Below, one piece after another: positions 28,379 to 40,785 of a DNA stretch of 46,799 nucleotides. Source of the DNA: Chloroflexota bacterium. GTDB lineage: Bacteria > Chloroflexota > Anaerolineae > UBA1429. The position numbers and the translations under genes were made by a program. The DNA lies in assembly GCA_012841405.1 (NCBI GenBank), contig DUUT01000214.1:1-46799 (forward strand), read 5' to 3'. The notes under the pieces are model-generated. The model was given only the letters and a program-made list of their open reading frames with translations. It was not told the origin of the DNA and searched no databases. Position 1 is the stretch's first letter. Every line of letters begins with the position of its first letter.

Positions 28379-30064
28379 TCAGTGCGTCGCGCCCAACGCC
28401 CCATCGGACTCGGACTGCGCGTAGCGCCGAAGGGCGCGTCGGCGCCGCAGTGCCCAGATGAGCACGGCGATCACGCCCACCACCAACACGGCGCCGACGA
28501 CGATCACCCGGGCTGCGATGCGGTCGAGGATCTCGCCCTCCAGCGACAGCGGGAAGAACGAGTCCTCCACCACCGGCGCCATGAGGTTATCCACCGGGGC
28601 GTGATCGTCCGTCAGGATGCGCGGAGGATCGAGGGCGAGATAGGCCTCCAACTCTTCCGGTGGCAGGGGACGATGGGCGGGCTGCAGGTGGTCGAGCTCC
28701 AGCGGCTGCTGGCTGGCGGCAATGACGTAGGTTGTGCGCAGTGTGTCCCGCCAATGCTCTGTTGATGGTGTAACGGCGACATGGGCAAAGACCTGCTGCA
28801 ACGTGCGCACATAGGCACGCATAAAGTGCCCCCGTGGCCCGCCATCGATGATGTTGACGAGGTACACCCCATCGTCGCGCAACAGCTCGTCCACGATCTG
28901 GGCGAACTCGAGCGTCGTCAGGTGGGCGGGCACGGAATAGTCGTTAAAGGCGTCGCCAAAGATAACGTCGTACGAGTCCGGCGTGCTATGGTGGGCCATC
29001 AGGATGCGGGCGTCAACGTTGTGCGTTTCGATGCGCGTGTCGCGGGGCAACCCGAGGCGCTCGTGAGCGATCTCGGTAACGCCGGGATCGATCTCGGCGA
29101 CCACGAGGTGACTGTCGGGCAGGGTGGCCTCGAGGTAGCGGGGAAAAGTGTAGCCGCCGCCACCGATGAACAGGGCGTCGAGGTCGGGGCTGCGCTCGGT
29201 GATGGGGCGGATCATGTCGGCGTAGGTACGCTCATAGCCGTAGGCGAGATGCGTCGGGTCGTCCAGATCGGTATAGCTGTGGACGAGGCGGTCGAGGATC
29301 AGCTCGTGGACCTGACGTCCCTCGACCTCTGAGGCGGACACGTTGATGCAGTAATAGTTCGTCTCGCGCAGGCACTCACCGCGCAAGTATCCTGTGCGGC
29401 CCAACAGCGCCACGCCTCCCGCGAACAGCGCCACCGCTAGGGCGATCCCGGCCATGCTGTGGCGTCGCGATGGCGTGCGGCGTACGGCCAAAAAGCTCAC
29501 GCCCAGCAGCAGGAGCAGCGACGCAACGGCGAGCACCACCATCTTGGTGCCCAGCCAGGCGATGAGCCAGAACCCGGCGGCAAAGGTGCCCATGATGCTG
29601 CCAGCGGCCGAGGCGGCATAGATGCGCCCCACGGCGCGCCCCACGCCGCGCAGGCTGGTCACGGTCAGCTTGATGACGATCGGCGACACCATGCCAAAGA
29701 GCACGCTGGGAGCAAAGAACACCCCGCCGATATAGCCCACCACCCACACGAGCAATGGGATGCGTACCGCAGGAATGACTTCGTGGAGGTCGTTGTTCAG
29801 CCAGAGGATGAGAAGACAGGCGAGGGACCCGGTGCAGAACACGGTGCCCAGCAGACCGGCCGAGGCCCTACGGTCGGCCAGCTTGCCCCCCAAGTAGTTG
29901 CCGAGGGCACCTCCGGCCATCATGATGCCGATCACGGTGGTCCAGGTGTAGAGAGAGACACCGATGCGCGGGGCGATCATGCGACTGGCGACCAACTCGA
30001 CGATCATCAGGCAGGCGCTGTTGACGAATACCAGCGTGCCCGCGACCCGAGGGCCAAACTTCAC
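28379..30064 (-). CDS. Membrane-fused spermidine synthase-like protein
   Basis: 561 residues. The N-terminal ~230 residues form about seven transmembrane helices with MFS-like features (GTLVFVNSACLMIVELVASRM, GGALGNYLGGKLADRR). The C-terminal domain is a class I methyltransferase-like fold of the spermidine synthase family: FIGGGGYTFPRYLEA, VVAEIDPGVTEIA, and FGDAFNDYSVPAHLTT. A last hydrophobic segment lies near the C-terminus. Such fused proteins are widespread and their product is usually unproved, so polyamine synthesis is only a family-level call. GTG 30064 has AAGGAG seven bases upstream; the frame stays open far beyond but lacks homology there. A promoter lies at 30135-30108. Confidence 0.88.
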   Translation of the reverse strand: MKFGPRVAGTLVFVNSACLMIVELVASRMIAPRIGVSLYTWTTVIGIMMAGGALGNYLGGKLADRRASAGLLGTVFCTGSLACLLILWLNNDLHEVIPAVRIPLLVWVVGYIGGVFFAPSVLFGMVSPIVIKLTVTSLRGVGRAVGRIYAASAAGSIMGTFAAGFWLIAWLGTKMVVLAVASLLLLLGVSFLAVRRTPSRRHSMAGIALAVALFAGGVALLGRTGYLRGECLRETNYYCINVSASEVEGRQVHELILDRLVHSYTDLDDPTHLAYGYERTYADMIRPITERSPDLDALFIGGGGYTFPRYLEATLPDSHLVVAEIDPGVTEIAHERLGLPRDTRIETHNVDARILMAHHSTPDSYDVIFGDAFNDYSVPAHLTTLEFAQIVDELLRDDGVYLVNIIDGGPRGHFMRAYVRTLQQVFAHVAVTPSTEHWRDTLRTTYVIAASQQPLELDHLQPAHRPLPPEELEAYLALDPPRILTDDHAPVDNLMAPVVEDSFFPLSLEGEILDRIAARVIVVGAVLVVGVIAVLIWALRRRRALRRYAQSESDGALGATH

Positions 30065-30107
30065 GATACGTCTCCTTCGAGGATGCCTCTCACCATGGGA
30101 TGGCGGC

Positions 30108-30135
30108 AGTATAGCCCGCCGGCCGGAGGCGTCAA
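30108..30135 (-). promoter_or_regulatory. Sigma-70-like promoter for the spermidine-synthase-like gene
   Basis: On the minus strand TTGACG (30135-30130) and TATACT (30113-30108) with a 16-base spacer; the leader is about 40 bases. This supports the start at 30064. Confidence 0.65.
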
Positions 30136-30223
30136 CCGCCAAGGCGCTCGCTACGTCTATGGGGATGGGTGCCGCGTGGTAGCCGCAACGGTTGAGGTCG
30201 GCGGACGGCAATGTGGAGGAGGA

Positions 30224-31045
30224 ATGGATCAGCGACGGAACACTATGCGAGGTAACGCCGACGACCGCGAGGTCAGTCTCGAGGGTGGTGGGCGCACGGC
30301 CGTCTCTCGCCGGGGGCATGTTGTGCTGCGGGAGGCTGGCCCGTGGACGCCGACGGTGCACACGCTGCTGCGGCACCTGGAACGGGTGGGCTTTTGCGGA
30401 GCCCCACGGGTGGTGGGCTCGGGTTTCGACGCCCAAGGGCGCGAGAAGCTGAGCTACATCCCGGGCGAGTTCATGCAGCCCGGCCCGTGGACGCTCGAGG
30501 GTGCGGCGGGGGTTGGTCGCCTTTTGCGAGCGCTGCACGATGCAGCGGCGTCCTATCGTCCTCCCGCGGATGCCGTGTGGCGCCCTTGGTTTGGGCGAGC
30601 CTTGGGCGATGAGGCGCTCATCATTGGCCATGGCGATGCCGCTCCCTGGAACATCGTGGCCCGCGAGGGGCTGCCGGTTGCGCTCATCGATTGGGAGGTG
30701 GCTGGGCCGGTCGACCCCCTTGTGGACCTGGCGCAGGCGTGCTGGCTGAACGCCAAGCTGCACGATGAGCAAGTGGCCGAAATGGAGGGGTTACCCCCGG
30801 CCGCTGAGCGCGCACGCCAGCTCCGGGCCATCGTCGACGGCTATGGGCTGACGGCGGCGCAGCGCCACGGATTTCTCGATCGCATCATCGAGTTTGCCGT
30901 TCACGATACTGCTGAGCAGGCCATCGAGGTGAATGTCCAACCCGACAGCCCGGGCCCCGGACCGTTGTGGGGCCTGGCCTGGAGGGCGCGTTCGGTTGCG
31001 TGGATGCTGCGTCACCGGCGTTTGCTAAAGAACGCCCTCACCTGA
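30224..31045 (+). CDS. APH-type phosphotransferase
   Basis: A 273-residue kinase of the aminoglycoside phosphotransferase/choline kinase-like fold. The catalytic loop is IIGHGDAAPWNIV (HGDxxxxN) and the metal-binding motif is VALIDWEVAGPVDPLVDLA. The N-lobe is short. Family members phosphorylate hydroxyls of antibiotics, sugars or choline; no clear resistance subtype is evident, so a metabolic substrate is as likely. ATG 30224 follows GGAGGAGG closely. The C-terminal codons, from about 31008, fall inside the first unit of a 53-bp tandem repeat that continues past the stop. Confidence 0.82.
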   Translation: MDQRRNTMRGNADDREVSLEGGGRTAVSRRGHVVLREAGPWTPTVHTLLRHLERVGFCGAPRVVGSGFDAQGREKLSYIPGEFMQPGPWTLEGAAGVGRLLRALHDAAASYRPPADAVWRPWFGRALGDEALIIGHGDAAPWNIVAREGLPVALIDWEVAGPVDPLVDLAQACWLNAKLHDEQVAEMEGLPPAAERARQLRAIVDGYGLTAAQRHGFLDRIIEFAVHDTAEQAIEVNVQPDSPGPGPLWGLAWRARSVAWMLRHRRLLKNALT

Positions 31046-31419: not shown

Positions 31420-31477
31420 AGCCGGAATCGGCAGGGCGTCCGGGCCCGCCGTAGTCGTCCTGATGAGAAGGATAGCC

Positions 31478-32803
31478 ATGTTCAAACGATGGTCTGTACT
31501 GTGGGGGGCGCTGCTCGTGCTCATGGCGGCGCTCGCCGCCTGTCAACCCGCTACGCCCCGCGTGAGTAACGGGGCTTCCGAGCCCACCGAGACGGCGACT
31601 GTGGCCGCGGCGACCGTCGCTCCTACTGAGCCGCCCAGCGCGGCGCCGACGGAGGCGACGCCCGCGCCCAGCGAGCCTACGTCGCCTCCAGCAGCGACGC
31701 CGGTCCCTGGCGCAACCTCGGCGCCGCAGCCCACGCCCCCGTGGATGATCCCCGAGATCCGTGAGGGGGACTGGGTGAAGGGACCGGAGGAGGCCGGCGT
31801 AACGATCGTCGAGTATAGCGATTTTCAATGACCAGCCTGTGCGGGGTCGGCGACCCTGCTCAGTGAACTCGAAGCATCGCATCCCGAAGGCGTGCGCATC
31901 GTCTACCGGCATTTTCCGCTGACATCGATCCACGACAAAGCCATGCTGGCCGCCGAGGCGGCTGAGGCGGCCGGCGCGCAGGGCGCCTTCTGGGAGATGC
32001 ACGATCTTCTCTTTGCGCAGCAAAGCGCGTGGGCCGACCAGTCTGTGGAGGCGTTCCGCACGACGCTGGAGGGCTTTGCGCGCGATCTGGATCTGGACGG
32101 TGACGCGTTCACCGAGGCCCTCGATAGCGGTACCTATCGCGGTGTGGTGGAGGACGCCCTGGATGAGGCGATCGAGCTGGGGCTCCCAGGCACGCCGATG
32201 CTGTTCATCAACGGGCAGTACTACGACGGACCGCGCAGCGCGTACGTGCTGGATGCCATCGCCGTATGGCTGAACTATGACGGCGTGCAGTACGATGCCC
32301 CGGGCGAGATGAACCTCGACCCCGAAGGGACGTACATTGCGACGGTCGAGACGACGCAAGGTTCCTTCTGCATCGAGCTGTACCCCGCCCGGGCGCCCAA
32401 GCTGGTGAACAGCTTTGTCTTCCTGGCGAGCGAAGGCTTTTTTGACGATACGCCGTTCCACCGGGTGATCCCCGGTTTCGTTGTCCAGGGAGGCGATCCC
32501 ACCGGTACGGGCCTCGGCGGCCCGGGGTATCGCATTGAGGACGAGATCGATCCGGACCTGCTGCATGACGGGCCCGGCGTGGTCTCGATGGCCAATGCGG
32601 GGGCCAATACGAACGGCAGCCAGTTCTTTATCACGCTGGACGCTCTCCCCGACCTCGATGGCGGGTACTCGATCATCGGCCGTGTGGTGGAGGGGATGGA
32701 GGTCGTCGAGAGGATGACGCCTCGCGACCTGCAGCAGGGCATCAGTGCAACCCCCGACCGTATCGAACGTATGACCATAGGGTCGACGTGTGACGCGTCC
32801 TGA
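31478..32803 (+). CDS. Probable selenoprotein: DsbA-like thioredoxin fused to cyclophilin, lipoprotein (TGA at 31829 read as Sec)
   Basis: Read through one TGA, this is a single 441-residue protein. Residues 1-22 are a lipoprotein signal ending LAAC. Residues 23-95 are a Thr/Pro/Ala linker. Residues about 98-275 are a DsbA/Thioredoxin_4 domain: VEYSDFQ, then the active site U118-P-A-C121, IVYRHFPL, and a cis-Pro loop GLPGTPMLFINGQ. Residues about 284-441 are a cyclophilin peptidyl-prolyl isomerase: FHRVIPGFVVQGGDP, GSQFFITLDALPDLDG. The TGA stands exactly where the family has its first catalytic Cys, the frame is intact on both sides, and a SECIS-like hairpin follows. It would act outside the membrane in disulfide exchange and proline isomerisation of secreted proteins. 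ATG 31478 follows AGAAGGA. A conventional reading would give a 117-residue stub and a separate protein starting near 31892. A point nonsense mutation is the alternative. Confidence 0.85.
31837..31863 (+). promoter_or_regulatory. SECIS-like hairpin just after the in-frame TGA
   Basis: After TGA 31829-31831, five bases intervene. CTG (31837-31839), one mismatch, and GCGGGGTC (31841-31848) then pair with GACCCTGC (31852-31859), one mismatch, and CAG (31861-31863), with one G-U pair. The apical loop is GGC (31849-31851). The loop G lies 18 bases after the TGA, within the spacing described for bacterial SECIS elements, which require a G among the first two loop bases. Confidence 0.78.
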
Positions 32804-33515: not shown

Positions 33516-33545
33516 GCGGGGATGTGGCCATGGCCACATCCCCGC
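33516..33545. repeat. 30-bp perfect palindrome
   Basis: GCGGGGATGTGGCCA at 33516-33530 is followed directly by its exact reverse complement at 33531-33545, with no spacer. It lies 63 bases upstream of the sulfatase-fold gene. It could be an operator, a recombination or replication-slippage product, or a terminator; there is no T-tract. Confidence 0.9.
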
Positions 33546-33608
33546 TCATCCCCGCTCGACTATCCCCTTGGCAGGGCCCTCGTCGGTTGGTTGTGGAAAG
33601 GAGAACCG

Positions 33609-34973
33609 ATGCCTGCTTCCAAGACCAACGTCTTTTTCCTCGTTCTCGACTCGTTCCGCCAGGACCACATGTCCTACTATCATCCCGAGTCGCCCTGCCA
33701 AACGCCACACCTGGATGCACTCGCCAGGGACAGCGTGGCATTCGACAACTGCTACCCTGAGGGACTACCCACCATTCCCGTACGTACGACACTGCTCACC
33801 GGTGAGCGCACGCTGGTGCACCGACCCTGGCAGCCGTTGACGCCAGAGGACCGCTCGCTTCCCGAGATCCTGAGTAGCGCGGGGTATCTGACGGCCTGCT
33901 TTACCGACTGCTACCACTATTTCAAGCCGGGGATGAACATGCATCGCGGATTCCGCGTCTGGGACTGGATCCGTGGGCAAGAGTTCGACAGCTATCGCTC
34001 GGCGCCGTTGCGCAAGCTCAAGCTGGAGGACCATGTCAAGGACACGTTCTCCGAGCAGTGGTGCCGGATCGTCGAGATGGCGCTCAAGAACGTGGAAGAG
34101 CTCGCGACGGCCGAGGACTATTACTGTGCGCGCCTCATGCGCCGTGCCAGCGAGTGGCTGGCGGCAAACGCCGGTCAGCCGCCCATCATGATGTGGATAG
34201 ACTCGTTTGATCCCCACGAGCCGTGGACGCCGCCCCCAGAGTTCGACAAGTACACCGATCCGGGCTATCGCGGCAAGCGGCTCATCTTTCCGCCGGGGGG
34301 GATGGCGGCCAGCCACTTTACCGAGGAAGAGATCGCCTACATCCGTGGGCTGTATGCCGGCGAGTGCGCCTATGTCGACCACTATGTTGGCGTGTTCATC
34401 GATCAGCTCAAGGCGCTAGGGCTGTACGACGATGCCCTCATCGTGCTGATTTCCGACCACGGGCACCCGCTGTCGGATCATGGCAAGTTCCTCAAGGGTG
34501 GCGACCGGCTGTACAACGAGCTGCTCAAGGTGCCGTTCACCATCCACTTCCCGGGCGGGCGTTACGCTGGCAAGCGTCTCGACGCGTTAGCCAGCTTTCA
34601 CGATGTGCTGCCGACGCTGCTAGACGCCATTGGCATGGGCAACAACCTCGACGCCCTGCCGGGCAAGAGCCTCATGCCGGTGATTCGCGGAGAGGTGACG
34701 GCCATCCGTGAGGTCATCATCAGCGGCTACCATGGCGCGCCGGATCGCGTCATTCGCGACAAGGTGTGGAGCTATATCCGGCGGCCCGAGAACGAGCCCG
34801 ACGAGCTGTACAACCTGGTGGAAGATCCCGCCGAGCTGCGCAATCTGATCGATGACTACCCAGAGGAGGCACAGCGGCTGGCGGCGTCCTTCGGCGTGCT
34901 CTATGCCCTTCAGGGGGCGCCGGTGAAGGGGATTCAGGGCAAGTACGAGCTCGAGCACACCGGCATCGCGTAG
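33609..34973 (+). CDS. Sulfatase-fold hydrolase with Thr at the formylglycine position
   Basis: 454 residues of the alkaline phosphatase/sulfatase superfamily, with no signal peptide. The N-terminal metal site begins FLVLDSFRQDH (D14). The second half supplies VLISDHGHPLSDHGKF with Asp/His ligands, followed by LLKVPFTIHFPG and FHDVLPTLLDAIG, all typical of sulfatases. The signature C/S-x-P-S-R, whose Cys or Ser becomes formylglycine, reads T55-I-P-V-R59 in TIPVRTTLLTG. A sulfatase needs formylglycine, so this protein either uses Thr directly, like nucleotide pyrophosphatase-type members, or is not a sulfatase. ATG 33609 follows AAAGGAG. Confidence 0.88.
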   Translation: MPASKTNVFFLVLDSFRQDHMSYYHPESPCQTPHLDALARDSVAFDNCYPEGLPTIPVRTTLLTGERTLVHRPWQPLTPEDRSLPEILSSAGYLTACFTDCYHYFKPGMNMHRGFRVWDWIRGQEFDSYRSAPLRKLKLEDHVKDTFSEQWCRIVEMALKNVEELATAEDYYCARLMRRASEWLAANAGQPPIMMWIDSFDPHEPWTPPPEFDKYTDPGYRGKRLIFPPGGMAASHFTEEEIAYIRGLYAGECAYVDHYVGVFIDQLKALGLYDDALIVLISDHGHPLSDHGKFLKGGDRLYNELLKVPFTIHFPGGRYAGKRLDALASFHDVLPTLLDAIGMGNNLDALPGKSLMPVIRGEVTAIREVIISGYHGAPDRVIRDKVWSYIRRPENEPDELYNLVEDPAELRNLIDDYPEEAQRLAASFGVLYALQGAPVKGIQGKYELEHTGIA

Positions 34974-38085: not shown

Positions 38086-38967
38086 CTAGCCCAGCTCTTT
38101 CACGCTGGGCACAGCGTTGGCGGCGGTGTGCTGCTCCTCGGTGCGGCTGAACAGCACTGCCAGCGCAAACCCCGCGGCGAACGCCACCACGAGCACTGGC
38201 ACGCTCGCTCCCGCGAGGCTGCTGGGCCACAGGCCGTATACCGACCCGACAATCAGGCCAAGGACACCATAGTAGGTGATGCCCGGTGCGCGCTTGATGG
38301 CCGTATCTGCCGCTTTGGACCAGAGGATGATCCCGAGGCCTGCCCCGATGCCGAGCCCTATGAGGATCGCCCAATGGATCTGGAGGGAGGTTAGCGCCGA
38401 GAGGGCGTCAAGGATGGGCTGGTAGGTGCCGGCCAGCAAGAGGATATACGATCCGTCGAGTCCGGGGGTCACGCTAGCGCACCCGGCGACGAACGACGTC
38501 ACGGTCGTGTAGACGAACCCCCCGATGCTGCTTGGATCGGCCATCAGGCTTCCCTGGACCCCGAGACGCTCGAGGAGACGAACCCCCACGACGATGACGA
38601 GGCCGGCGATCAGGGTGAGGACACGCCCTGTCGAGGGCTTCATATCATCGTGCATCTTGAGCACGGCGGGCACGGTGCCCAGCATCAGGCCGATGAAGAA
38701 CAGCATCGCCGGGGCTGGGTAGCGCTCGAGAAGGGCGGAGACGAGGTGCGCAAACACGACCACCGAGATGGCCATGCCGATCCCGAGAGAGACGAGAAAG
38801 GGAATGTACTCGCCCCAGCGGTCGCGCCGCAGGAAAAAGTTGCCGAGAGCATCGACAAAAGGCTCGTACACGCCGAGGAGGATCATTACGATACCGCCGC
38901 CGAGGCCCGGCACGATGTGGGTGAGGCCGTACGCCATTCCCTTCAGAACCAGAACCAGGTATTTCAT
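38086..38967 (-). CDS. DUF368 polyprenyl-phosphate transporter
   Basis: A 293-residue polytopic membrane protein. The DUF368 signature opens it, KGMAYGLTHIVPGLGGG, and a second copy of the motif lies mid-protein, GCASVTPGLDGSYILLLAGTYQP, reflecting an internal repeat. About eight hydrophobic segments are present. DUF368 proteins (PopT) have been shown to return undecaprenyl phosphate across the membrane for reuse in cell-wall synthesis. ATG 38967 has AAGGAG upstream. Two candidate promoters lie upstream at 39045-39017 and 39229-39201. Confidence 0.9.
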   Translation of the reverse strand: MKYLVLVLKGMAYGLTHIVPGLGGGIVMILLGVYEPFVDALGNFFLRRDRWGEYIPFLVSLGIGMAISVVVFAHLVSALLERYPAPAMLFFIGLMLGTVPAVLKMHDDMKPSTGRVLTLIAGLVIVVGVRLLERLGVQGSLMADPSSIGGFVYTTVTSFVAGCASVTPGLDGSYILLLAGTYQPILDALSALTSLQIHWAILIGLGIGAGLGIILWSKAADTAIKRAPGITYYGVLGLIVGSVYGLWPSSLAGASVPVLVVAFAAGFALAVLFSRTEEQHTAANAVPSVKELG

Positions 38968-39016
38968 CCCGTCTCCTTCGGTACGCAATTGTCGGATACC
39001 ACTCGGACCGTGGGGC

Positions 39017-39045
39017 ATTGTACCACATGGGACCAAGCCGTCGAA
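39017..39045 (-). promoter_or_regulatory. Extended -10 promoter, proximal, for the DUF368 gene
   Basis: On the minus strand TTCGAC (39045-39040) and TACAAT (39022-39017) with 17 bases between; the -10 lies in the 11-mer TGTGGTACAAT shared with the selenoprotein promoter. The leader is about 45 bases. Confidence 0.6.
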
Positions 39046-39200
39046 ACGCCACGGGTGGGTGCTTGGGCACCGCATGCCCCGCTGCCATGGGCACGGAGAG
39101 GCCGGCGCGGAGGAGTGCTGGTGGCTCGACGCCTAGGGGAGCGCGCGCTGTCGCCGGCGTGCGGGTGGCAGCGACGCCCCTTTTCGCCGGCAGAAGCTCT
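39046..39200. other. Divergent intergenic stretch, nothing further recognised
   Basis: Part of the 321-base gap between the DUF368 and pdtaS starts. Apart from the three promoters annotated here, I see no gene or repeat in it. Confidence 0.5.
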
Positions 39201-39254: not shown

Positions 39255-39282
39255 TTCGCTCCCGCCGGTGTTGTGCTATAAT
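39255..39282 (+). promoter_or_regulatory. Extended -10 promoter for pdtaS-pdtaR, leaderless spacing
   Basis: A perfect TATAAT at 39277-39282 preceded by TGC (extended -10); a weak TTCGCT at 39255-39260 lies 16 bases upstream. Transcription should start at or next to the A of ATG 39289. Confidence 0.65.
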
Positions 39283-39288
39283 CTCGCC

Positions 39289-40785
39289 ATGGGGACTGGG
39301 AATGTGTGGAGCCACGTCGCGCTGCGTGCTGACGACGTGGCTTTCTTGAAAAAGCTCACGGCCGATCTTCCTATCTTGGCGGACGTCAGCCGCGCGGATC
39401 TCCTCCTCTACTGCAGCGCGGGCCCGGAGAGCGCCATACTCGTCGCGCAGGCGCTACCACACTCCGTCTCCCCGCTGTACGATGAGGGCCGCGTAGGGCA
39501 GCGTGTGCGGGCGGGCGATCAGGCCGAGGTTTTGCGTGCCTTGAACGGGGCCGTCGATCCCTCGGTGGTGCACACGGTGGAGGTGCGTGGGGCCACCGTG
39601 GCGCGGCAGGTGTACCCAGTCTATGGTCAAGAGGGTGAGCTCATTGCCGTGCTGGCGATGGACTCGTACTGGCTCGCCCACGAGCGACACCGGCGCCGCG
39701 CCCGATCGTTTCAAAAGGCGCTCAGTGCGTTCACCTGGATGGTGCTACAAGGCGACCTGCGTGGCGCGGAGGGACTTACGCCTTTTGGCGAACACGATGG
39801 GATCGTCTACGTAAGCGCGGATCGCCGCGTGCAGTACATGAGCGGCATTGCGGCCGGGCTCTACCGCCACCTGGGGTATCGCGATAGCCTGGTCGGGCGA
39901 CGGATCACCGAGCTCGAGACCGTTGACGCCGAGATGGTCTCGGTGGCGCTGACCGAGCTCCGCTGCCTCGAGCGACAGGAGGAGCAGTTCGGTCTGACCT
40001 GGATACGGCGCGTCTTGCCGGTGACCGAACGGGTCGTGCCGGCCGAGCGGCGGGCGCTCCAGTGGCTGCGTCACGACTACCGCCGCGATGGGCCGCAACG
40101 CCCGCGTGGGGCGTTCATCTTGGTGCACGATGCGACCGAGGCACTGCAGACCCAGCGCGAGCTGGAAAGCAAGATGGCCATGCTGCGCGAGGTGCACCAT
40201 CGGGTGAAGAACAACCTCCAGGTCATCGCGTCGCTGATGCGTATGCAGTCCCGGCGGGTCGAGAGCGCGGAGGCGCGCACCGTCCTGGAGGAGAGTGTCA
40301 ACCGCGTCCTCAGCGTGGCCGTGGTCCACGAGTTCCTGTCGCAGAATGCCCAGGGCGCCATCAACCTGCAGGATGTGGCGCATCGCATCGTGTCACAGAT
40401 GCAGCAGGGATTGGTGGATCCCGACAAGCGCATTACCCTGACGGTCACGGGGCCGGCGATCTGGCTGCCGGCCGAGCGCGCCACCCAATGCGCTCTGGTG
40501 ATCAATGAGCTGGTCCAGAATGCCATCGAGCACGGCATCGCGGACCGTGACGAGGGCCTGGTGGATGTCGAGTTCGTGGACCATGGCGACACCGTCGAGA
40601 TCCACGTGGTCGATGACGGGGAGGGGCTTCCCGAGGGGTTCGATCTTGGCATCAATGCTAACCTGGGGCTGCGCATTGTGCGCAGTATGGTCGAGCGAGA
40701 CCTGCGTGGACGGTTCGACCTCGTCAGCACCGGCGGTACCCGGGCAACGGTGCGCTTTGACAAGTCCATGGTAGGAGGAGGCTGA
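39289..40785 (+). CDS. pdtaS: PdtaS-like sensor histidine kinase
   Basis: A soluble 498-residue sensor kinase of the HisKA_2/HWE-like type. The N-terminal ~140 residues form the PdtaS GAF-like domain (LADVSRADLLLYC). A PAS-like domain follows (DGIVYVSADRRVQYMSGIA). The phosphoacceptor region LREVHHRVKNNLQVIASLM has His303/304, and the ATPase domain has NELVQNAIEHG, DDGEGLP and LGLRIVRSMV. In mycobacteria PdtaS phosphorylates the ANTAR regulator PdtaR and senses metals or c-di-GMP. ATG 39289 lies six bases after a perfect -10 box, implying a leaderless message; GTG 39304 is the fallback. The pdtaR start is two bases after its stop. Confidence 0.9.
   Translation: MGTGNVWSHVALRADDVAFLKKLTADLPILADVSRADLLLYCSAGPESAILVAQALPHSVSPLYDEGRVGQRVRAGDQAEVLRALNGAVDPSVVHTVEVRGATVARQVYPVYGQEGELIAVLAMDSYWLAHERHRRRARSFQKALSAFTWMVLQGDLRGAEGLTPFGEHDGIVYVSADRRVQYMSGIAAGLYRHLGYRDSLVGRRITELETVDAEMVSVALTELRCLERQEEQFGLTWIRRVLPVTERVVPAERRALQWLRHDYRRDGPQRPRGAFILVHDATEALQTQRELESKMAMLREVHHRVKNNLQVIASLMRMQSRRVESAEARTVLEESVNRVLSVAVVHEFLSQNAQGAINLQDVAHRIVSQMQQGLVDPDKRITLTVTGPAIWLPAERATQCALVINELVQNAIEHGIADRDEGLVDVEFVDHGDTVEIHVVDDGEGLPEGFDLGINANLGLRIVRSMVERDLRGRFDLVSTGGTRATVRFDKSMVGGG

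Follow-up and report, generated by a model that had tools for sequence, protein, structure and literature searches.

A predicted selenocysteine-containing DsbA-cyclophilin lipoprotein of a Chloroflexota bacterium and the three hairpin registers found after the UGA codon in its family

We analysed a stretch of 46,799 nucleotides (the window) from the metagenome-assembled genome (MAG) of a Chloroflexota bacterium. One of its genes very probably encodes an anchored extracytoplasmic foldase, in which a DsbA domain with selenocysteine at residue 118 (Sec118) is fused to a cyclophilin and the UGA is decoded by means of SelB and a hairpin at 31841-31859. This reading is backed by sequence, namely by the frame, the domains, the selenocysteine machinery, the hairpin and conservation. 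The prediction of selenocysteine at residue 118 is strongly supported. The features of the gene are as follows.

31466..31472, + strand: Shine-Dalgarno-like AGAAGGA, 5 nt ahead of the ATG, read by eye
31478..32803, + strand: predicted DsbA-cyclophilin selenolipoprotein gene, 441 residues with Sec118 on read-through, from the frame and a profile search
31478..31543, + strand: signal peptide with lipobox LAAC and predicted lipidated Cys22, from the sequence by eye
31766..32242, + strand: Thioredoxin_4/DsbA domain, residues 97-255, from Pfam and an AlphaFold2 model
31829..31831, + strand: UGA read as putative selenocysteine 118, N-terminal nucleophile of U-P-A-C, from the sequence and homologue codons
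31838..31840, + strand: Cys121, resolving residue of UxxC, from the sequence and alignment
31841..31859, + strand: SECIS-like hairpin H1, 8-bp stem, loop GGC, -12.7 kcal/mol, from folding and a scan
31864..31878, + strand: site at which most relatives examined have their hairpin (H2), from stem comparison
32195..32197, + strand: Pro240 of GTP, invariant in the 41-row alignment
32342..32770, + strand: cyclophilin-type peptidyl-prolyl isomerase domain, residues 289-431, from Pfam and fold matches

The 441-codon frame starts with ATG at 31478 and ends with TGA at 32801-32803. As an earlier sequence-only reading had noticed, its sole interruption is the TGA at 31829-31831, which is residue 118. 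Lipoproteins are marked by a lipobox motif that ends in Cys and lies behind a signal helix. In the window protein LAAC (residues 19-22) was seen by eye behind such a helix, and Cys22 was kept in at least 90% of the 41-member alignment A1. Pfam searches with the read-through protein gave Thioredoxin_4 at residues 97-255 (84.5 bits), DSBA (PF01323) at residues 109-251 (63.9 bits; gathering score 25.6) and, as the top-scoring domain, Pro_isomerase (PF00160) at residues 289-431 (143.4 bits; gathering score 21.7). FHRVIPGFxxQGGD and QFFIT, which we take to be cyclophilin motifs, were both readable in the translation. The label of DsbA-like thioredoxin given by the sequence-only reading fits the first half of the protein and not the C-terminal half, which is a cyclophilin and had been overlooked, as had the lipobox at C22 and the SECIS-like hairpin.

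The AlphaFold2 model had a mean pLDDT of 88 and a pTM of 0.75, with residue 118 placed directly before helix 119-134. The best PDB folds were cyclophilins, the top 50 fold matches being 20-49% identical, and for the DsbA half the best solved sequences were DsbA/BdbD-type proteins. Pro240 is presumably the cis-proline of the thioredoxin fold. Among the 41 members of our first set of homologues, Pfam found Thioredoxin_4 and DSBA in all and Pro_isomerase in 39; judged from lengths, the two members without it are probably L051 and L067, which are truncated by contig ends. The window MAG contained a single Thioredoxin_4 match, the DsbA-cyclophilin protein itself.

We propose that the lipoprotein signal and a Pro/Thr-rich tether would carry the DsbA-type domain to the extracytoplasmic side, lipidation and location both being predicted. 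The hairpin at 31841-31859 would direct SelB and Sec-tRNA-Sec to decode the UGA. Sec118, as the selenolate, would attack disulfides of the substrate, leaving Cys121 to resolve the mixed selenenyl-sulfide; the cyclophilin half would speed prolyl isomerisation of the same putative client. Such an anchored foldase would reshuffle disulfides and isomerise prolines.

As for the redox direction, we lean slightly towards a reductase/isomerase role rather than that of a classical oxidase, because a search of the MAG, which is 96% complete, gave no match at E 0.001 to DsbB (PF02600) or VKOR (PF07884), but a CcdA-type protein is present. One DsbD_TM/CcdA-like protein was found, encoded near a thioredoxin-like lipoprotein that by eye is TlpA-like. 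The same selenoprotein could instead act as a DsbA-like oxidase of secreted proteins, a possibility we hold to be real although the less probable of the two: its DsbA-family fold and its closest solved sequences, which include chains named DsbA and BdbD, agree with oxidation, and the want of DsbB and VKOR matches and the CcdA-like protein beside the lipoprotein speak against it. With neither DsbB nor VKOR found, the redox partner is a guess. In the region L251:152-2199 (G000:C234) the thioredoxin-like lipoprotein, another reading frame and the CcdA-like protein stand in a row, which is likely the extracytoplasmic reductive module of this genome.

The codon at site 118 was compared in two sets of homologues. 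The first collection contained 110 loci: 30 were the best from a search that covered 150 relatives, and 80 were the best of 174 relatives in a GTDB scan. Site 118 was covered by 109 of them, with 23 TGA, 70 TGC and 16 TGT. Where the window has UPAC, homologues have DFQ-C-P-x-C; the Cys that the sequence-only reading expected at residue 118 was thus found, and with the Pfam domains it bears out the claim that the TGA falls on the catalytic nucleophile of a DsbA/Thioredoxin_4 protein. The first set proper (L026-L067, class relatives or named Chloroflexota records) had 23 TGA and 18 Cys, L066 not covering the site, and the 68 loci L068-L135, mostly from actinobacteria, all had Cys.

For the second set 396 class genomes were drawn, 169 of which had a match at E 1e-30. 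From these came 14 loci and 60 hand-picked stretches (31 of the 32 listed TGA matches not yet among the loci, G106:C26 being left out, and 29 without TGA), 74 in total, of which 8 duplicates, all TGA, were dropped. This set, which includes close kin of the first, had 31 TGA, 34 Cys and 1 Ala at site 118. Both sets together gave 107 close homologous loci, all best matches, with 54 TGA, 52 Cys and 1 Ala, a TGA share that reflects the picking of best matches and of nearly all listed TGA matches and is not a prevalence. L041 and L065 are the same at the site, which leaves 53 distinct TGA loci. TGA at the aligned codon thus recurs across many separate genomes.

Over the DsbA part the nearest relative among the matches found reached 56% identity, which leaves the TGA of the window itself without confirmation from a near relative. 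Of 14 genomes from the family of the window, 11 contained nothing that matched at E 1e-10, G003 and G013 had Cys at the site, and G014 gave weak matches only. Downstream of the TGA, the TGA pair L028/L029 differed at 28, 12 and 90 codon positions 1, 2 and 3 (321 codons), and the TGA pair L038/L043 at 4, 2 and 23. These counts show purifying selection on the reading frame beyond the TGA in closely related TGA genes. The window and L027 differed at 95, 87 and 167 (319 codons) and are too diverged for a clear selection signal.

Some homologues departed from the CxxC pattern. L048 and L052, from the family of the window, read C-P-H-S and lack the second Cys, and L209 reads A-P-A-S with neither Cys; to judge by these motifs, members of this type may no longer do disulfide chemistry. 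Other matches from the search of 150 relatives, such as G022:C33:5494-5964, G057:C136:8601-9086 and G146:C67:30971-31423, had shorter open frames (206, 211 and 251 aa in these three) with one in-frame TGA each, and are perhaps further Sec-DsbA-like proteins without the cyclophilin.

The window MAG has 4.0 Mb in 238 contigs, with 96.11% completeness and 7.46% estimated contamination. A search of the genome for selA, selB, selD and tRNA-Sec, as the sequence-only reading had advised, found all of them: SelA with 575 bits, SelB with 312 bits (333.3 with a neighbouring piece; cut-off 242.25), SelD with 336.8 bits and an in-frame TGA of its own, and tRNA-Sec with 69.9 bits (gathering score 47), called by ARAGORN as tRNA-SeC with anticodon tca. 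They sit on four contigs other than that of the window. The four fetched sel loci had a GC content of 0.65-0.71, and the window 0.61-0.70 in 2-kb steps; contamination is a small remaining risk. The TGA of the host selD (L022, G000:C230) lies in the motif LAKAAGUGGK.

SelA was matched in all 13 TGA-form genomes, over the cut-off in 12 and as a piece at a contig end in G016. It was also over the cut-off in 13 of the 16 Cys-form genomes, so the presence of the machinery alone does not separate Sec and Cys forms. With 100 candidates scored per genome and a threshold of 60 bits set by us, 11 of the 13 TGA genomes had a tRNA-Sec, as did 12 of the 16 with Cys; the TGA genomes G113 and G134 scored 43.5 and 47.1 bits.

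The UGA is followed by what appears to be a bacterial-type SECIS hairpin, a candidate recoding signal. The loop of this hairpin, H1, begins 17 nt past the UGA, and three more outer pairs lengthen it to 31837-31863, with -17.0 in place of -12.7 kcal/mol. All the rules that PMC13188914 (section 5) gives for a bSECIS hold for H1. We combined these rules with limits of our own (at least 6 uninterrupted pairs, a loop of 3-6 nt with G then G/U, spacing of at most 38) in a scan that was written after the first hairpins were known. In the first set the scan found hairpins in 22 of 23 TGA genes, missing L059, and in none of the 18 Cys genes, against a background of 360 of 14,960 codons elsewhere in the 41 genes. 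In the second set it found them in 20 of 31 TGA genes, 1 of 34 Cys genes and not in the Ala gene (TGA against Cys, Fisher 6e-8 with relatedness ignored), so that 11 of the 31 TGA genes were missed. When the 21 codons of the window were synonymously recoded 20,000 times, 1.1% gave any match and 0.43% an equally stable one. When the 72 nt that begin at the UGA were simply folded, they were not stabler than dinucleotide shuffles (z -0.07; 93 of 200 as stable). The hairpin signal is one of position or geometry and loop, not of bulk stability, with a chance of about 0.4-2%.

These results bear on three other explanations of the TGA. A sequencing or assembly error that made TGA from a TGC or TGT Cys codon, or a recent nonsense pseudogene, could be thought of for a MAG in 238 contigs with Cys in the two same-family homologues examined (L048 and L052), but it is very unlikely given the same aligned TGA in 52 other distinct homologues, the sister L027 (100/98) included, the SECIS-like hairpin after it and the full sel gene set. 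Readthrough or decoding of UGA as Cys or Trp, free of selenocysteine, is less probable still: the gene's own terminator at 32801-32803 is TGA, so TGA also means stop inside this same gene, the MAG has the Sec machinery, and the position, the aligned Cys and the hairpin are those of Sec. Equally improbable is a pair of genes, the first for a lipoprotein stub and the second for a cyclophilin protein that starts at GTG 31892, because the split, although mechanical ORF calls do stop at 31831 and restart at 31892 as the sequence-only reading had foreseen for standard annotation, would remove the active-site nucleophile and Cys121, and because the 18 first-set homologues with Cys run through the site as one continuous frame and both domains share one frame in 39 of 41 members once read through. 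Error, pseudogene, split gene and non-Sec readthrough were all rejected on the homologue TGA, the hairpin, the sel genes and the continuous Cys frames; the selenocysteine reading drew its support from the homologue codons, the sel machinery and the hairpin.

The position of the hairpin differed among the TGA genes. Stems were scored in three fixed registers, with the loop 17 nt (H1), 23 nt (H3) or 38 nt (H2) past the UGA; this choice of registers was made with the first 23 TGA genes already in view. H2 alone was found in 34 of the 54 TGA loci, H3 alone in 12, H1 alone in 3 (the window, L027 and L152) and H1 together with H2 in 2 (L028 and L029). The other three (L161, L175 and L181) had no fixed-register stem, with 3-4 bp in register 23. 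A fixed-register stem was present in 1 of 53 non-TGA loci (L208), against a background of 188 of 14,960, and in the second set alone in 28 of 31 TGA loci versus 1 of 35 others. The window lacks H2, with only 3 of its 6 pairs possible; its sister L027 has, beside H1, a 5-pair H2 with loop GUC. The hairpin of the host selD falls in none of the three registers.

H2 stems vary by compensation. Of the 36 loci with such a stem, 30 have C-G at pair 37-49 and the other 6 have U-A; pair 38-48 takes five standard pair types, and the loop varies among GGU, GUU, GGA and GGC. Among the first 23 TGA genes helix 2 was paired in 90.9% of cells, with both-side changes at three pairs; for helix 1 the share of paired cells was 66.9%. 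In the covariation control the number of both-side-changed pairs was not above that of shuffles (185 of 500 reach it), and both-side-changed cells and the score exceeded them (0 of 500). The slide control at +2 scored 0.245 versus 0.242, yet with fewer cells paired (59.8% versus 78.0%). The residues encoded by the stem shift with the stem (RLVDA, FLEET, SLVET, FLLET, LLEEA), which suggests that the RNA structure constrains the protein sequence there. That H2 is kept merely because the protein is kept does not alone explain the data, since Cys homologues with similar residues lack the full stem (L040, KRLTEAY, 6 of 8 pairs; L150, ARLVESY, 3 of 8 pairs).

Two cases stood apart. L208 (G275:C234:3320-3778) has Cys at the site and carries SECIS-like hairpins in two of the registers, which may be left over from a time when it encoded Sec. 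Genome G293 has two UGA paralogues in different registers, one at C168:18736-19197 inside L061 with H2 (38 nt) and one at G293:C11:18675-19130 (L171/L228) with H3 (23 nt); one SelB would then read both.

In the 41-row tree the window and L027 formed a supported clade (100/98), and at least 7 Sec/Cys interchanges were needed, which the starred branches also force. A quick 91-row tree gave 12 as the fewest Sec/Cys changes (9 forced by starred branches) and 7 register changes among the Sec genes that have a register. The twelve H3 genes as one clade were rejected (p-AU 3.5e-57), a grouping chosen after the tree and in the presence of long branches. The three H1-only genes as one clade were not rejected (p-AU 0.073), so two origins of H1 are not claimed. 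The simplest story would begin with an ancient Sec form carrying H2, which changed to Cys repeatedly and whose SECIS moved on a few occasions, in the lineage of the window through a two-hairpin stage; the direction of these changes is our reading of an unrooted tree. On balance we find it fairly probable that the SECIS is mobile, with one UGA column, three registers and repeated exchange, probably via two-hairpin genes such as L028, L029 and L027, the protein bending to the RNA at the stem codons (RLVD, FLEE, SLVE, FLLE), and that the window carries a near hairpin which replaced an ancestral far one.

Ten frames of the window were scanned with Pfam; seven were matched, none of them to a selenium gene, and a plasmid search gave no match. 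The neighbours include the following.

29459-31042, + strand: APH-type phosphotransferase match, from Pfam
33522-34970, + strand: sulfatase, from Pfam
38086-39075, - strand: undecaprenyl phosphate translocase-like protein, from Pfam
39268-40782, + strand: PdtaS-type histidine kinase, from Pfam

If our reading holds, standard annotation would break into two pieces, neither with an active site, a redox folding enzyme that many genomes of one Chloroflexota class contain (54 TGA loci, 53 distinct, among the best matches examined), and one exported protein is predicted to couple selenium chemistry to prolyl isomerisation. With dozens of homologous genes, one codon allows comparison of where the SECIS lies, of Sec against Cys, and of what the RNA structure costs the protein. 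Specialists should find the movable SECIS the most rewarding part.

The sequence-only reading had called the protein undescribed. This does not hold for the general kind: DsbA-like UxxC selenoproteins have been in print since 2005 from the Sargasso Sea (PMC1088965), were also found in GOS in 2008 (PMC2398784), and are listed in a 2026 review under PF01323 as 'DsbA-like protein form 1' (PMC13188914). Like those described there, the window protein has a predicted Sec at the N-terminal CxxC position of a DSBA domain and a SECIS-like hairpin of bacterial type just downstream. It has the DSBA match over the gathering score together with UPAC that mark a DsbA-like UxxC selenoprotein, and its gene the UGA at the catalytic Cys, the bSECIS-type hairpin and, in the MAG, the SelA, SelB, SelD and tRNA-Sec of a bacterial selenoprotein. 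The word 'cyclophilin' is absent from the main text of all three papers; 'chloroflex' is absent from PMC13188914, PMC2398784, PMC5029168 and PMC9312934 and occurs twice in PMC1794560. The claim of novelty stood for the DsbA-cyclophilin form and the shifting SECIS register, for which a literature search of open-licence papers found no paper.

The best NCBIfam match was NF041057 (Rcas_1661 family thioredoxin-like (seleno)lipoprotein) at residues 12-253, a family that appears as 'DsbG-like' in PMC13188914. All 41 members of A1 matched it at E 0.001. Filing the protein under NF041057 was dropped at 113.9 bits against a cut-off of 190. Judged by its length (247 positions) and the stretch matched, the model is without the prolyl isomerase part. 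The window protein presumably shares the cis-Pro position with DsbA and BdbD oxidoreductases. It resembles them (PDB 4pwo and 3eu3) in its DsbA-family sequence match and, unlike them, has a predicted Sec for the nucleophilic Cys, a predicted membrane tether and a cyclophilin. Its C-terminal half resembles cyclophilins (PF00160, 143.4 bits; PDB matches including human PPIL2 and CypA), and is here fused to a putative Sec-DsbA domain on a predicted lipoprotein. A 2006 survey (PMC1794560) described SECIS phylogenies as consistent with protein phylogenies; here the register changes inside one family. The general kind of selenoprotein is known, and the fused DsbA-cyclophilin form and its movable SECIS look new.
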